From Holophagae bacterium (GTDB taxonomy: Bacteria; Acidobacteriota; Holophagae; Acanthopleuribacterales; Acanthopleuribacteraceae), in assembly GCA_029263455.1 (NCBI GenBank), contig JAJCXM010000004.1:310001-374000 (forward strand): 64,000 nt of DNA, in the 5' to 3' direction. Made by a program: the position numbers and the translations under genes. Below, piece after piece: positions 31,137 to 36,258 of this stretch. The notes under the pieces are model-generated. The model did no database searches, was not told the DNA's origin, and saw only the letters and a list, made by a program, of their open reading frames with translations. The stretch's first letter is position 1; each line of letters begins with the position of its first letter.

Positions 31137-31571
31137 CTATCTAAGCCAATTACGAAAAACCATCACAGCGGTGAGTGCGGTGATAAGTGAATGGTGGATG
31201 ATTGAGAATACGACAATTCTTTTCCTCAAACTCTCAAATGAATGAACGGGACCCGTCTTTGATAATCCCCGTTCTAAACCGAAATAGATGTTTATTCCTA
31301 CTAAGAAACTAGCCGTGACTATGCCGTGGCGCCACATGGCGCCATAAGATGAAGCCACCAGTGAAAGTAGATAGAGTCCGGTCAACAAATTGGCAGCCCA
31401 CGACAAATACAGGTACCTATGGGTCAATATTCGCAGAGTTCCGGCTGTTGCAGCCGCATCCCTGTCACCAAGCCTCATGGTGACGCCCAAGAAGCGTCCA
31501 AACGCTAACGGCAACCCGAATAGCACCATGGCCGAGATCAGGTGTACAAAAACAACCGAGTCGCGTATCAA
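31137..31571 (-). CDS. small integral membrane protein, unknown
   Basis: A 144-residue protein with four hydrophobic helices and a basic cytoplasmic loop (FESLRKR). The best start is TTG at 31571, which overlaps the permease TGA as TTGA and has GAGGAA 6 nt upstream; an ATG at 31595 inside the permease gene is also in frame. The helix pattern recalls CopD/DUF2269-like membrane proteins, but I cannot assign a family. It is cotranscribed between the ABC exporter and ribD. Confidence 0.65.
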   Translation of the reverse strand: MIRDSVVFVHLISAMVLFGLPLAFGRFLGVTMRLGDRDAAATAGTLRILTHRYLYLSWAANLLTGLYLLSLVASSYGAMWRHGIVTASFLVGINIYFGLERGLSKTGPVHSFESLRKRIVVFSIIHHSLITALTAVMVFRNWLR

Positions 31572-32377
31572 TTCAGTTTCCTCGCAATCACCCATCTAGC
31601 TAAGAATCCCACCAATATTTGGCAAGCGAGTAGTCCAAGTAGGCAACGAGTGATAGTAAATGCTCCTAAAGGCGACTCGTGAATAACACCAGACCACGTC
31701 CAATCGGTATTTAACACAACCGCTCTTATGGGTTCCACAGCAAATGTGACCGGATTAAGCGAAACCAGGAATTGTAACCAGTCTGGCATGAATTCAACAG
31801 GCGCAAACGCGGTGGAAACAAATACCATAGGTAACGATACGATCATGACAATTGCCAATAACTCAAAGTGGTATCGCAACGCAAAGGCCAACAATAGGCT
31901 AATCGTCGTAAAAATCATGGTTATTAAGATTAGGGCAGTTGTAAGAACCAATATTCCATTAATTCCGCCTTGAAAGCGGACGCCCATAAACCAAGTGACA
32001 ATCAAAATCACACAGCATTGCAGCAAGGTCATGGCAAATATATGAATCCCAGTTGACCAAATGATTGAAAACCGAGACACAAGTGGCGCAACTAAGAGTC
32101 GATCCAGGAAACCAAGCTCACGATCAAACAAAATCGGTACACCACCATTGAGAGCACCAGAGAAAGCAGTAAATACCAAAGCTCCCGGTGTAATGAAAGC
32201 GAGATAAGAAGCGGCACCTTGAAGCTGCGCCATCGGACTATTTTTGAAGACCGCCGAGAACAGAAGCAGCCAAATAAACGGCTGTAAGAGTCCAGAAATC
32301 AGCACGATGGGCCGCCGCTTGGTTTGAATAAAACAACGCATCGACATGGCTTGGATCTCAAGCCACTGGTTCATCAT
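31568..32377 (-). CDS. ABC-2 type exporter permease (DrrB-like)
   Basis: A 269-residue permease with six membrane helices of the ABC-2 family: an N-terminal amphipathic segment, the RPIVLISGLLQPFIWLLLF helix, the FDRELGFLDRLLVAPL coupling region and the FVSTAFAPVEFMPDWLQ loop before the last helices. It overlaps the ATPase gene by ATGA, indicating a one-ATPase/one-permease exporter. Relatives export drugs, polysaccharide or lipids; the cargo is unknown. Confidence 0.9.
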   Translation of the reverse strand: MMNQWLEIQAMSMRCFIQTKRRPIVLISGLLQPFIWLLLFSAVFKNSPMAQLQGAASYLAFITPGALVFTAFSGALNGGVPILFDRELGFLDRLLVAPLVSRFSIIWSTGIHIFAMTLLQCCVILIVTWFMGVRFQGGINGILVLTTALILITMIFTTISLLLAFALRYHFELLAIVMIVSLPMVFVSTAFAPVEFMPDWLQFLVSLNPVTFAVEPIRAVVLNTDWTWSGVIHESPLGAFTITRCLLGLLACQILVGFLARWVIARKLN

Positions 32378-33321
32378 AGTGACCCCCCAACTGCAAATCG
32401 ATAGACATCTTCCAGAATCGGTATTTGCATGCTCATTGACATCAATTTCAGTTCTTTACGATCAAAGGCACTGGCAACCATGTCCTGTGTTTGATGCAGA
32501 CTTGCCGACGAGCGCAACGTGAAGTGAGTGCCATCTTCGATTTCCATGACTCGATTTAAGCCATCAAGATCCGTAAGCACGGATTGTATCTGTTGGTGAT
32601 GGTCGTTTGTTGAAGAATCATCTAATTTGGCCTTCACGACATAGTCACCAAGGTCTCGCTGTAAGTTTTCTAATGGGCCTTGAACAGCTGTGACCCCTTT
32701 ATTCATGATCAAGACTTCATTGGCTAACTCTTCCACTTCACGAAAGTCATGGCTGGCCAGGATCACGGAGCCTCCATCGGCACGATACTGATGAATCAAC
32801 TGCCAAATCTGTTCACGACCTTCGACATCCAGGCCAGTGGTGGGTTCGTCCAAAATCAGAAGCTTAGGTTTGTTAAGCATAGCTGCTGCAAGGTCCAAGC
32901 GTCTTTTCATGCCTCCTGAATAGCCCTGAACCCGCCTATCCTTATCATCGAACAAATTAACGGCCCGTAACAATTCGATGGCCTGATCAGCGACAGTCTT
33001 CCATTTCAGATGATAAATACCAGCCTGGAACTTCATAAACTCAGTCGCCGTGAGCGCCTTATCTAAGGCCAACTCCTGAGACACATAACCCATCAACGAC
33101 CTAAGACGACGTGTTTCTTTCAGAAGATCCACTCCTTCAAAGGTAAAAGAACCTGTATCTGCCTTTATTAGAGAGGCCAGGATACGAATCGTCGTCGATT
33201 TCCCGGCACCATTTCGTCCCAATAAGGCGATCACTGATCCTTTTTTGAGGCTGAACTTCAAATCACTAACCGCTTCAATATCGTCAAACCGTTTAGCGAT
33301 GCCTTTTGCGACCCAGTCCAT
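32374..33321 (-). CDS. ABC exporter ATPase (DrrA-like)
   Basis: Nucleotide-binding subunit for the adjacent ABC-2 permease. ATG at 33321 with AGAGG 8 nt upstream gives 315 residues. Walker A GRNGAGKST, Q-loop GYVSQE, signature YSGGMKRRLDLA, Walker B LLILDEP and the H-loop SHD are all present, so it should hydrolyse ATP. The C-terminal 90 residues are the DrrA-type extension. It begins 68 bp downstream of the membrane-protein gene. Confidence 0.93.
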   Translation of the reverse strand: MDWVAKGIAKRFDDIEAVSDLKFSLKKGSVIALLGRNGAGKSTTIRILASLIKADTGSFTFEGVDLLKETRRLRSLMGYVSQELALDKALTATEFMKFQAGIYHLKWKTVADQAIELLRAVNLFDDKDRRVQGYSGGMKRRLDLAAAMLNKPKLLILDEPTTGLDVEGREQIWQLIHQYRADGGSVILASHDFREVEELANEVLIMNKGVTAVQGPLENLQRDLGDYVVKAKLDDSSTNDHHQQIQSVLTDLDGLNRVMEIEDGTHFTLRSSASLHQTQDMVASAFDRKELKLMSMSMQIPILEDVYRFAVGGSL

Positions 33322-33389
33322 ATCAACTACCTCTGTTAGAATCCGCCGGATCATAACATTTCCACCCGTGCTTGGGGTCGATAAACGAG

Positions 33390-34022
33390 TTAAATGACTT
33401 CGTCAGCTGAAGACGCTAGGCGCGCATAACGACGAAACGATCGCCACAAGAAAAGTAAATTCGCGCACAAAAATGTAAGGGCCGCTGCGACTACAAAGGG
33501 TGAAGGTTTATCGTCAATTTCAAGCGTTTTCTCCCGTGACACAAAAGAGTTCACCGTCGCTCTAAAGTCCGGTTCCGCAGCTTCAAAATCTCCCTCCACG
33601 CCCATTAGAAAAAAGTGAACATGTTGATTCGCAATTTCCCGCGTGACCCATAGTAATCGTGTCAGTTGAGCTTGAGGATCGTCTTCATCTGGGACCACGA
33701 TTGCCCGGTCAGACGCAATCGGTTTCAGATTAAGATTCTCATCGTTCAAGACCAACCTCAACTCCGCGACCGGATCTAATTCATGTTTGTTTAAGGTTGA
33801 ATCGATAACCACCACAAACAACACCTGCATGACGGAATGGCCCACAATCACTGTACGTTCAGGTCGGTTTTCCTGAATGTCGATACTGCGGAAGCTACTG
33901 GTAAAAATGAGTGAAGATCCATCTTCCAGTTCCAGCCTTGTATCAGCAAAGAGCGCAAGGCTATACAAAGCTGCGATGGCGAATGGCGCGAAGTGCTTCA
34001 GCAAATTCAGTCTCCGAGACAT
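33390..34022 (-). CDS. exported membrane protein, unknown
   Basis: A 210-residue protein with an N-terminal signal sequence (about 8-26), an extracytoplasmic domain of mostly beta character (about 27-175) and a C-terminal transmembrane helix (about 178-197) with a short basic tail, i.e. a type I topology. No family recognised. ATG at 34022 lies 62 bp inside the end of the deoxyribosyltransferase-like/XRE gene, an unusually long same-strand overlap that argues for coupled expression. An upstream in-frame start at 34064 is less likely because it would precede the signal peptide with a charged tail. Confidence 0.65.
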   Translation of the reverse strand: MSRRLNLLKHFAPFAIAALYSLALFADTRLELEDGSSLIFTSSFRSIDIQENRPERTVIVGHSVMQVLFVVVIDSTLNKHELDPVAELRLVLNDENLNLKPIASDRAIVVPDEDDPQAQLTRLLWVTREIANQHVHFFLMGVEGDFEAAEPDFRATVNSFVSREKTLEIDDKPSPFVVAAALTFLCANLLFLWRSFRRYARLASSADEVI

Positions 34023-35025
34023 GATTGACGACTCTAGAAGGGTAACTTGATTCCAAAACTTCATCTACAAGGATCTGTCTCAACTCATCGTATTCTCGAT
34101 AGGTAATATCGTATTGATGGGCACGCATCTTTAAGCTTTCTAGTCGCGCATCTCGGAGTTGGCCTTGGTATGCGTTCAAGACTTTAGCCGGACCCTGAGC
34201 TGGAATCTGGTCAGACGTTTCGCCAACCAGTTCCGCAACCCCAACATCTAAAGTGAAACACAGACGATGAATCGCATCGAGTCCAGGGTTAGCCAATTGC
34301 TCCAATTGGCGGAAATTCAATGATATTTCACCTATATCGCTTGCATCATCGCCTTGATAGACTTCGAATTCAGCTCGAACTTCATCAATATGCATTTCCC
34401 ATAATCGGATTTGGGCTGGCCATAAACCCGCTCTCAACGCTAACTGCTCAGGAGACATCCCATGATTTTTGCGCAATGTCTGAAGTCTCTTTCCAATGTC
34501 CCAATGCGGAATGTGAAATGTTTGAGACTGTCCTAATCTAGCGATGACATCTTCGACAAGTGTTAGCAATTGTGGTTTAAGATCACGCCAATCTCGATAA
34601 CGAATGAAATCTCGTTTTTCGGGTTCTAGTCGGGTCACATTCACGGGAGTCCCAATCAGGAATCGTGATAATTTTTGTTCACGTGTGAAGAAAATGACAG
34701 GTTTCCCGAGCGAGGTTGCCAATTCAACTTCACCGCCAATACCAAAACTCGTCTGGTCGGCTACAACCAAGATATAGTCCGCTTCGACGATTCGAACACG
34801 ATCCAAAAGGTAAACGTGTTCGGGCGTCATATTTGATCGTTTCTCAGGAGAAGTGACCAAAGACGGAATGTAAACGGAAGTGAGATAAGGAGGTAATTTT
34901 AAAGCCTCAGCTATCTTCTGAACTAGCGTTTGAATACGACCTTTTTCGCGTTGTGGACAGCGCGTAATGGGTTCACTCAAGTAGGCACGGAATCGCGCCG
35001 GTTCGTACGCTTGGAAGGATGCCAC
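33961..35025 (-). CDS. nucleoside 2-deoxyribosyltransferase-like / XRE HTH fusion protein
   Basis: A 354-residue protein with two parts. Residues 10-150 have the Rossmann-like layout of nucleoside 2-deoxyribosyltransferase and related proteins: AYLSEPITR, VYIPS, the ADYILVVAD strand and SFGIGGEVELATSLGKPVIFF, where the Glu of GGE aligns with the catalytic Glu. Residues about 178-275 are an XRE-type HTH (IGKRLQTLRKNHGMSPEQLALRAG) in which about 35 residues are inserted before the last helices (LDAIHRLCFTLDVGVAELVGE). The C-terminal 80 residues are helical. A cytoplasmic regulator that senses or processes a nucleotide-like ligand is a reasonable inference. The start is GTG at 35025. The 3' end overlaps the membrane-protein gene. 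Confidence 0.72.
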   Translation of the reverse strand: MASFQAYEPARFRAYLSEPITRCPQREKGRIQTLVQKIAEALKLPPYLTSVYIPSLVTSPEKRSNMTPEHVYLLDRVRIVEADYILVVADQTSFGIGGEVELATSLGKPVIFFTREQKLSRFLIGTPVNVTRLEPEKRDFIRYRDWRDLKPQLLTLVEDVIARLGQSQTFHIPHWDIGKRLQTLRKNHGMSPEQLALRAGLWPAQIRLWEMHIDEVRAEFEVYQGDDASDIGEISLNFRQLEQLANPGLDAIHRLCFTLDVGVAELVGETSDQIPAQGPAKVLNAYQGQLRDARLESLKMRAHQYDITYREYDELRQILVDEVLESSYPSRVVNHVSETEFAEALRAIRHRSFV

Positions 35026-35150: not shown

Positions 35151-35852
35151 ATGTCATTTATTCAATTTTTGAAAACGAGAAACCCGATGCGACTTCTATT
35201 TCCGCATCAATGTTTGCTGTGCCAAGCTTCGCCCTCTAGCCCTCTCTGCGAACTCTGCCTGTTGGAGTTAGAGGCGGCGGGTCGAGGATGCGCAAAATGC
35301 GGCAACCCCGCAGCTGCAACGGCAATTGAAGGCTGTCCTTGGTGTGCGAGATTGCGCGTGTTGCCTCAATTACTTTGGTCACCCCTAATATTTCGGGCCA
35401 CAGGCAGACAAATTTATCATTTGGTCAAGTATCAGCACTATTGGCGCCTGATCCCAGAACTGATAGACCAGGCACTCACTCGCCAACCATTAGATCGTTC
35501 ATGGTTCACATTTGATTGTCTGGTGCCCATTCCTGAGGTCATAGGCAGTCAGTTCAAACGGCCATTTAACCCGTCTAAGACGTTAGCCACAAGTTTGGCT
35601 CGTCGCACCAGCATCGAGGTGAGACAGTTGTTAAAGATACGTCGATTTGGGGCACATCAGGTGGGTCTGGGCCTAAAGGAACGCAGGGCCAATATGCGCG
35701 GTAGATTTAGTGTTCAGGTTGAACCCCCAGAGTCTGTGCTTTTGGTTGACGACGTATTGACCACAGGCGCTACACTTGAATCAGCCACACTAGCGCTCAC
35801 CAAAGCTGGCGTTAAGCGCATAGGATGGTTGGTCCTGTTTCGGACAATCTAG
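35151..35852 (+). CDS. comF: ComF-family phosphoribosyltransferase-like protein
   Basis: The 233-residue protein has the ComF plan: two N-terminal Cys pairs forming zinc ribbons (CLLC, CELC, then CAKC, CPWC), a linker, and a type I phosphoribosyltransferase domain with the PRPP loop VLLVDDVLTTGAT near residue 195-207. In competent bacteria ComF acts in DNA uptake, and homologs (GntX) are found widely without competence. Transcribed alone, divergent from the XRE-fusion gene. Confidence 0.9.
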   Translation: MSFIQFLKTRNPMRLLFPHQCLLCQASPSSPLCELCLLELEAAGRGCAKCGNPAAATAIEGCPWCARLRVLPQLLWSPLIFRATGRQIYHLVKYQHYWRLIPELIDQALTRQPLDRSWFTFDCLVPIPEVIGSQFKRPFNPSKTLATSLARRTSIEVRQLLKIRRFGAHQVGLGLKERRANMRGRFSVQVEPPESVLLVDDVLTTGATLESATLALTKAGVKRIGWLVLFRTI

Positions 35853-35895: not shown

Positions 35896-36258
35896 ATGAG
35901 TGCACACGTTCAAGTCTACAATCCGGTGATGAACCAAAAGGTGAACAAACAGAAGCTAAACGTCATGGGTCGAGTTATTACTAAGGGCGTGCAGAACTTA
36001 GGCGTTTACCTAAATAACTACTTGATTCGACGCGTGAAACCTTCGGTAACCGGAGCTTTCGAATGCCACCTCGACCTCTCAGAACTGCCAGAAGGTGAGC
36101 ATCTTATTGAAATTCGCGCAATTATCAAACACAGCACACACCGCATGCGCGTTCCATTCAAACGAGTCATTGATGCGTCGGTTAACCAAAATGACGCAGA
36201 GGATCCGGCTCCAGACCAAGAAGTAACGGAAGCTGATGAACCAGAAGCAAGCAGCTAA
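35896..36258 (+). CDS. small hypothetical protein
   Basis: A 120-residue protein with a basic N-terminal half of beta-strand character (residues 1-95, ending with an EGEHLIEIRAIIKH strand pair, reminiscent of an Ig-like sandwich) and a very acidic C-terminal tail (about 96-120). No signal peptide. GGAG lies 8 nt before ATG. Its stop interlocks with that of the convergent HEAT-repeat gene (CTAA, 36255-36258). Function unknown. Confidence 0.7.
   Translation: MSAHVQVYNPVMNQKVNKQKLNVMGRVITKGVQNLGVYLNNYLIRRVKPSVTGAFECHLDLSELPEGEHLIEIRAIIKHSTHRMRVPFKRVIDASVNQNDAEDPAPDQEVTEADEPEASS

Follow-up and report, generated by a model that had tools for sequence, protein, structure and literature searches.

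Two overlapping genes of an acidobacterial genome, one encoding a DNPH1/NDT-like domain joined to an XRE helix-turn-helix and the other a predicted single-pass membrane protein, occur together across their order, and their features, as read from sequence and models, suggest a gene switch responsive to nucleotides and not a defense against phages. The interpretation that we favor, and that we put forward tentatively, is a vertically inherited two-gene regulatory module made up of a ligand-gated XRE regulator and an envelope partner. The locus lies in a window of 64,000 nucleotides (positions 310,001 to 374,000 of contig JAJCXM010000004.1, assembly GCA_029263455.1, 6.2 Mb) from a Holophagae bacterium. 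An initial annotation of this window had proposed either a ligand-gated regulator or a defense-linked module; the regulator stays the best reading in view of the fold, a pocket that is the most conserved part of the protein and a partner that is found at every homologous locus, and the defense alternative was not supported.

The sensor gene (33961..35025, minus strand) begins with GTG and encodes 354 residues organized as a DNPH1/NDT-like domain, a split XRE helix-turn-helix and a helical C-terminal tail; the coordinates and reading frames previously given for it and for the overlapping gene are correct. On the minus strand, the DNPH1/MilB/NDT-like domain covers residues 10-165 (34531..34998), the first half of the helix-turn-helix, with helices 1-3, residues 177-212 (34390..34497; Pfam and model), and the second half residues 247-270 (34216..34287; HTH_26 and model), while the conserved tail, which matches no known family, spans residues 283-354 (33964..34179). 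Between helices 3 and 4 lies an insert, at about residues 213-246 (34288..34389), that recurs in 7/7 orthologues. Because HTH_3 (positions 1-30, on sensor residues 181-210) and HTH_26 (positions 37-58, on residues 246-267) match separate halves of the motif in Pfam, the insert amounts to roughly 30-35 residues, in agreement with the earlier description of an XRE motif split by about 35. In the window's own protein the Pfam matches fall below their cut-offs, both for PF05014 (residues 34-118, E 0.0016, 19 bits against a cut-off of 28.8) and for HTH_3 (E 0.002); among the orthologues (n=7), HTH_3 is recognized in every member, with a best E of 1.1e-5, which identifies an XRE-type helix-turn-helix in the family, and PF05014 in two at E 0.01. 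The sensor shares helix-turn-helix sequence and fold with XRE regulators such as SinR, C.BclI and CapH, and departs from them in the insert and in its enzyme-like N-terminal domain. Identity to the window copy ranges from 47-71% among orthologues, and the helix-turn-helix residues are poorly conserved, 5 of the 36 positions in helices 1-3 being invariant.

That the N-terminus is NDT-like, as had been noticed from its sequence motifs, was settled by predicted structure even though PF05014 stays sub-threshold. The AlphaFold2 model, computed from the seven-row alignment, is of modest quality (mean pLDDT 64.6, pTM 0.55), and its residues 10-171 find their best structural match in MilB (VIA Z 15.6, 3.2 Å over 149 residues), with DNPH1 matching residues 11-158 at Z 14.1. 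Among the best 50 VIA matches listed, rows 1-48 are MilB, DNPH1/Rcl, NDTs, BlsM, BcmB and an unnamed E. faecalis protein, at Z 12-15.6, and rows 49-50 are SARM1 TIR. Foldseek returns nothing at E 0.001 or better; its ranks 1-17 are all NDT, DNPH1 or the unnamed E. faecalis protein, headed by a Chroococcidiopsis NDT (E 1.9e-3), and its best 50 listed rows include SinR, C.BclI and CapH. Structure prediction with Foldseek, the check suggested at the outset, did not assign the N-terminal domain to an unrelated fold, and both searches recover the NDT-type Rossmann-like fold of the NDT/DNPH1/MilB superfamily. In the VIA-align ranking, MilB and DNPH1, both nucleotide N-glycosidases, come closer to the modeled domain than classical NDTs do, although a classical NDT heads the list from Foldseek alone. 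Classical nucleoside 2-deoxyribosyltransferases (PF05014), which have an Asp six residues before the catalytic Glu, share the fold with the sensor, but the latter lies under the Pfam cut-off and carries, like DNPH1, a Ser at that position. Since an NDT-domain profile run against PDB sequences yielded only weak Rcl matches (E about 0.6), the fold assignment rests on the model together with the stand-alone relatives described below; chance similarity is ruled out by the structural match and by conservation in 7/7 sensors.

Conservation is concentrated in the putative nucleotide pocket: 71 of the 154 alignment columns of the NDT domain are invariant, as against 12-18% in the remaining parts of the sensor. 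Residues 75-118 align to rat Rcl without gaps, which places D75, S93 and E99 on catalytic and phosphate-binding residues of DNPH1; we take the rat Rcl residue numbers to correspond to those of the human protein. When ten stand-alone DNPH1-like proteins of a sister family are included, Y15 and S120 align too, and all five residues are invariant in 7/7 sensors, among them the catalytic Glu and Asp (E99, D75) that mark the NDT/DNPH1/MilB superfamily. In human DNPH1, Y24, D80 and E104 form the triad, S98 and S128' contact the phosphate, H56 serves the first chemical step and E55 the second (PMC10603095). The sensor thus resembles DNPH1 (Rcl) in fold (Z 14.1) and, by alignment, in the triad and both phosphate serines, but differs from it in carrying a helix-turn-helix and a tail, in a first loop with about six extra residues, one of them an invariant Cys, and in the LTEHV motif that holds E55 and H56, which is found in none of the seven sensors: in an alignment that is gapped there, the E55 position is Ser in 7/7 and the H56 position Leu or Gln in 7/7. 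Because the H56 position is changed throughout, the ligand of the sensor, judged from sequence, may differ from a dNMP. With the CMP-type N-glycosidases MilB and BlsM, from antibiotic clusters, the sensor shares the fold (MilB, Z 15.6) and, in BlsM, the catalytic Glu and the Ser preceding it; BlsM has no Ser at the S120 position, and MilB has Phe17 where DNPH1 has Y24 and lacks an equivalent of S128' (PMC10603095). Tyr15 of the sensor, at the place of MilB Phe17, hints at deoxyribose; a further difference from both enzymes is the presence of the helix-turn-helix in a locus that, as far as seen, lies outside any nucleoside-antibiotic cluster.

The stand-alone proteins offer a natural comparison for the fused sensor. 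Outside the window's genus, the NDT-domain matches in 297 phylum genomes are ten DNPH1-like proteins (L049-L058), from ten genomes that all belong to one sister family within the same class; eight have 136-161 aa and two are longer, perhaps through a wrong start. One of them aligns to the sensor with an hhalign probability of 94%, the three compared with PF05014 score 44.8-51.2 bits, and the His of DNPH1 is kept in 10/10, the Glu preceding it in 2/10. A PF05014 search of the seven genomes of the order detected no stand-alone DNPH1-like protein, the fused form being there instead; its matches, in 5/7 genomes, are the sensor itself in three and other proteins (L060, L063) in two, which we judge unrelated to the sensor, that of L063 belonging to PF15891. 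At L060:223-1047 (genome G300), a 274-aa ORF reaches the PF05014 cut-off only together with its in-frame neighbors.

The sensor and membrane genes are each present in one copy and adjacent to each other in 7/7 Acanthopleuribacterales genomes (Acidobacteriota), namely that of the window and those of six related loci, in Acanthopleuribacter pedis, Sulfidibacter corallicola and four MAGs, which emerged from an alignment scan of genome contigs; a single-sequence scan of the contigs confirmed no relative. As the genes are adjacent in every genome, the pairing exceeds chance, with the proviso that the data consist entirely of seven genomes from a single order, which are not independent of one another. 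Conservation of the neighborhood had been named as a check, and the membrane partner is indeed present at every homologous locus; with this and with an NDT-type fold, both points on which the initial annotation could have failed came out in its favor. In a sample of 396 phylum genomes, the sensor profile at E 1e-5 has two matches, both in the genus to which the window belongs, and so far as the matches tell, these two are the order's only representatives in the sample. Four sensor matches came from a protein-level search of 297 genomes of the phylum: the two species belonging to the window's genus, an ORF in L004 that looks antisense or due to chance, and a different protein in L003, in which an NDT is joined to a thymidylate-kinase-like part. 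The latter, 372 aa long with an NDT-like domain (L003:1363-2481, genome G070), lies on a 4.9 kb contig that may be a contaminant, and its second part is presumably a thymidylate kinase, a label given from motifs. No match to the sensor was obtained in 50,697 phage records, 72,556 plasmid records or viral contigs, and the membrane protein was detected, among the 297 phylum genomes, in two of the window's genus, with one weak match out of the order (G009, E 2.1e-4). In the reading that we favor, the pair is inherited vertically.

The membrane partner (33390..34004, minus strand) comprises an N-terminal hydrophobic export stretch, a PsbP/Mog1-like outer domain from predicted structure (residues 19-158 of the 204-aa form, 33531..33950, minus strand), one predicted C-terminal membrane helix (residues 168-186 of the same form, 33447..33503, minus strand) and a short tail. 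It is 204 aa long if translated from TTG 34004 and 210 aa from ATG 34022. The 62 bp overlap with the sensor gene originally reported holds for the ATG; the TTG looks likelier, because GGAG precedes it and because the resulting overlap, 44 bp, is also that of L010, the sister species. With preferred starts the two frames overlap by 32-44 bp in 6/7 loci, L013 having a gap of 8 bp. The description of an exported single-pass protein is borne out in prediction by two hydrophobic stretches, one towards either terminus, in 7/7, with 19-residue maxima of 1.85-2.56 for the C-terminal stretch; the N-terminal one is weak in L015 (0.53). The outer domain, modeled at pLDDT 75.2, has PsbP at Foldseek rank 1 (E 6.7e-4) and VIA matches in the range of Z 9-10.5 (best 10.5, PsbP 9.7, Mog1 9.6), a likeness to the PsbP/Mog1 fold that entails no common sequence family; with the membrane protein as query, neither Pfam nor the PDB sequences yielded a credible match. 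From PsbP, Mog1 and DcrB-type envelope proteins, whose fold the outer domain has, the partner differs in its C-terminal membrane helix and its co-encoded regulator. Mog1p/PsbP proteins are described as functionally diverse and perhaps linked to membrane-anchored complexes (PMC7716261). Identity to the window copy is only 17-38%, with 6 invariant alignment columns; leave-one-out profiles nevertheless recover each of the seven proteins at E 1.5e-6 to 4.1e-39, with best non-members at E 0.87, among the 662 ORFs of the seven loci, the same-genus sibling being left out as well in 4/7. On this profile evidence, the homology of the seven proteins is real despite their low identity.

The computed results support the fold, the conserved active-site core, the helix-turn-helix and the pairing throughout the order. 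As we infer them, the ligand, the DNA binding, the contact between the two proteins and the target genes would fit together as follows. A cytosolic sensor, presumably dimeric, would hold in its DNPH1-type pocket a nucleotide-like ligand that carries a 5'-phosphate and probably a deoxyribose. Occupancy of the pocket, whether or not the ligand is cleaved, would alter the state of the XRE helix-turn-helix and hence the transcription of target genes, which are most likely those of the sensor's own operon plus the ABC exporter in loci where it is adjacent, and the single-pass PsbP/Mog1-like protein would be the envelope partner that tethers the regulator or supplies an envelope signal. Counting against the regulator are the poorly conserved helix-turn-helix residues, an operator search that came up empty, the changed H56 position and the low confidence of the model. 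A ligand-gated regulator should display a constrained nucleotide pocket together with a helix-turn-helix, and the membrane partner found throughout the order adds a connection to the envelope, but a working enzyme would display the same pocket, so that the high active-site conservation fits the latter just as well. It is conceivable, though less likely, that the protein is a functional nucleotide N-hydrolase, a DNPH1-like pool sanitizer in which helix-turn-helix and tail provide oligomerization or localization instead of sensing and whose fused form takes the place of the enzyme that stands alone in the sister family. The invariance of all residues aligned with the triad and phosphate serines agrees with it, as do the ten stand-alone proteins outside the genus and the failure to find any with PF05014 in the seven genomes of the order; helix-turn-helix fold and family matches in 7/7 argue against it, and so do the first-loop insert and the loss of the H56 equivalent in 7/7, given that mutation of H56 in DNPH1 slows the first step about 120-fold (PMC10603095). 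The same source reports that mutation of Glu55 leaves the first step intact, with the base released and the sugar-phosphate held on the catalytic Glu, and slows release about 150-fold (PMC10603095). Triad and phosphate serines being kept and the Glu55 position being Ser, one could imagine a covalent single-turnover sensor that cleaves one deoxynucleotide, keeps the sugar-phosphate on E99 and switches the helix-turn-helix and membrane partner as a memory device; we regard this as the least probable of the readings considered, since the His56 position is changed as well and 8/10 stand-alone relatives also lack the Glu.

Compatible with either a regulator or an N-hydrolase, and rather improbable in our estimate, is an independent envelope function for the membrane protein, merely co-translated and exchanging no signal with its neighbor; its fast evolution relative to the sensor speaks for this, but the pair is intact in 7/7 even where no exporter is adjacent, with overlapping frames in 6/7. 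Improbable to a greater degree is an anti-phage or abortive-infection effector of retron type II-A likeness, in which the helix-turn-helix would aim an NDT-type N-glycosidase and the membrane protein would serve as partner or guard. Retron-Eco1 is reportedly NAD+-hydrolyzing, as the title of a study has it, which would lend such an effector some plausibility. In the open-access literature searched, the retron NDT effector is the nearest published layout (PMC8989520, PMC12548924, PMC12887533), the accessory proteins of Retron Eco1, Eco9 and Sen2 combining an N-terminal NDT-like domain with a DNA-binding one (PMC8989520). The type II-A effector nonetheless has an NDT of family PF15891 (a weak match) and a winged helix, whereas the sensor has an XRE motif and no reverse transcriptase partner; kinship is rejected, there being no recognizable sequence relation (hhalign probability 0.6%) and a different NDT family, helix-turn-helix type and gene partner. 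Defense is further disfavored because the sensor is single-copy in each of the seven genomes, keeps a comF-type gene (35151..35852, plus strand, divergent) nearby in 6/7 loci and has no reverse transcriptase close to it, the genome's only such match (RVT_1) being on contig C21 and the window on C4. PADLOC gives neither an NDT nor a retron match for any of the seven sensors, its NDT_II-A model finding 0/7, with the BL21 retron effector as positive control at E 2.7e-94, and the phages, plasmids and viral contigs searched lack the gene. Retron-Eco1 structures are not among the best 50 Foldseek or VIA matches listed, which excludes nothing. An NDT-plus-HTH layout is therefore not by itself grounds for calling a protein a retron effector. 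The open-access literature searched yielded no NDT/DNPH1-XRE fusion, and if the regulator reading is true, the DNPH1-type nucleotide pocket would join the ligand domains that control XRE regulators and provide a case for testing the recruitment of an N-glycosidase fold as a transcription switch.

The surroundings of the pair are less constant than the pair itself. The ABC-2 exporter expected downstream is there, a DrrAB-type set that begins 35 bp after the membrane gene and consists of a DrrA-type ATPase (32374..33354, minus strand) and a DrrB-type permease (31568..32377, minus strand), each a neighbor in 5/7 loci. Six of the seven genomes have an orthologue of the permease, which in G300 lies on a different contig; in G299, a genome of 3.5 Mb, the search found none. 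Membrane gene and exporter are separated by 35 and 62 bp in the window's genus, against 246, 325 and 606 bp in three further loci; given this variable spacing and adjacency in 5/7, the exporter is only loosely linked, and the conserved unit is the sensor/membrane pair. Riboflavin genes further along are neighbors in the window's genus only. The 125 bp gap between sensor and comF would be a natural place for an operator, and no inverted repeat common to the seven sensor upstream regions was found. A candidate operator is the inverted repeat TGTCTCAC-N2-T-N-AGACA (L012:9144-9160 and L014:7939-7955), which stands out amid poorly conserved upstream DNA in two species that share a genus; it is absent from the window, and its shuffle count of 1/200 ignores the same-genus kinship of the two species and is no proof. 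Two further genes flank the locus: at 31137-31595 (minus strand) a gene for a DUF2269-like membrane protein (E 0.0077, sub-threshold; 63% identity in the sister species) shares 28 bp with the end of the permease gene, and at 35896-36258 (plus strand) a 120-aa protein with a weak bacterial Ig-like Pfam match has 70% identity in the sister species.
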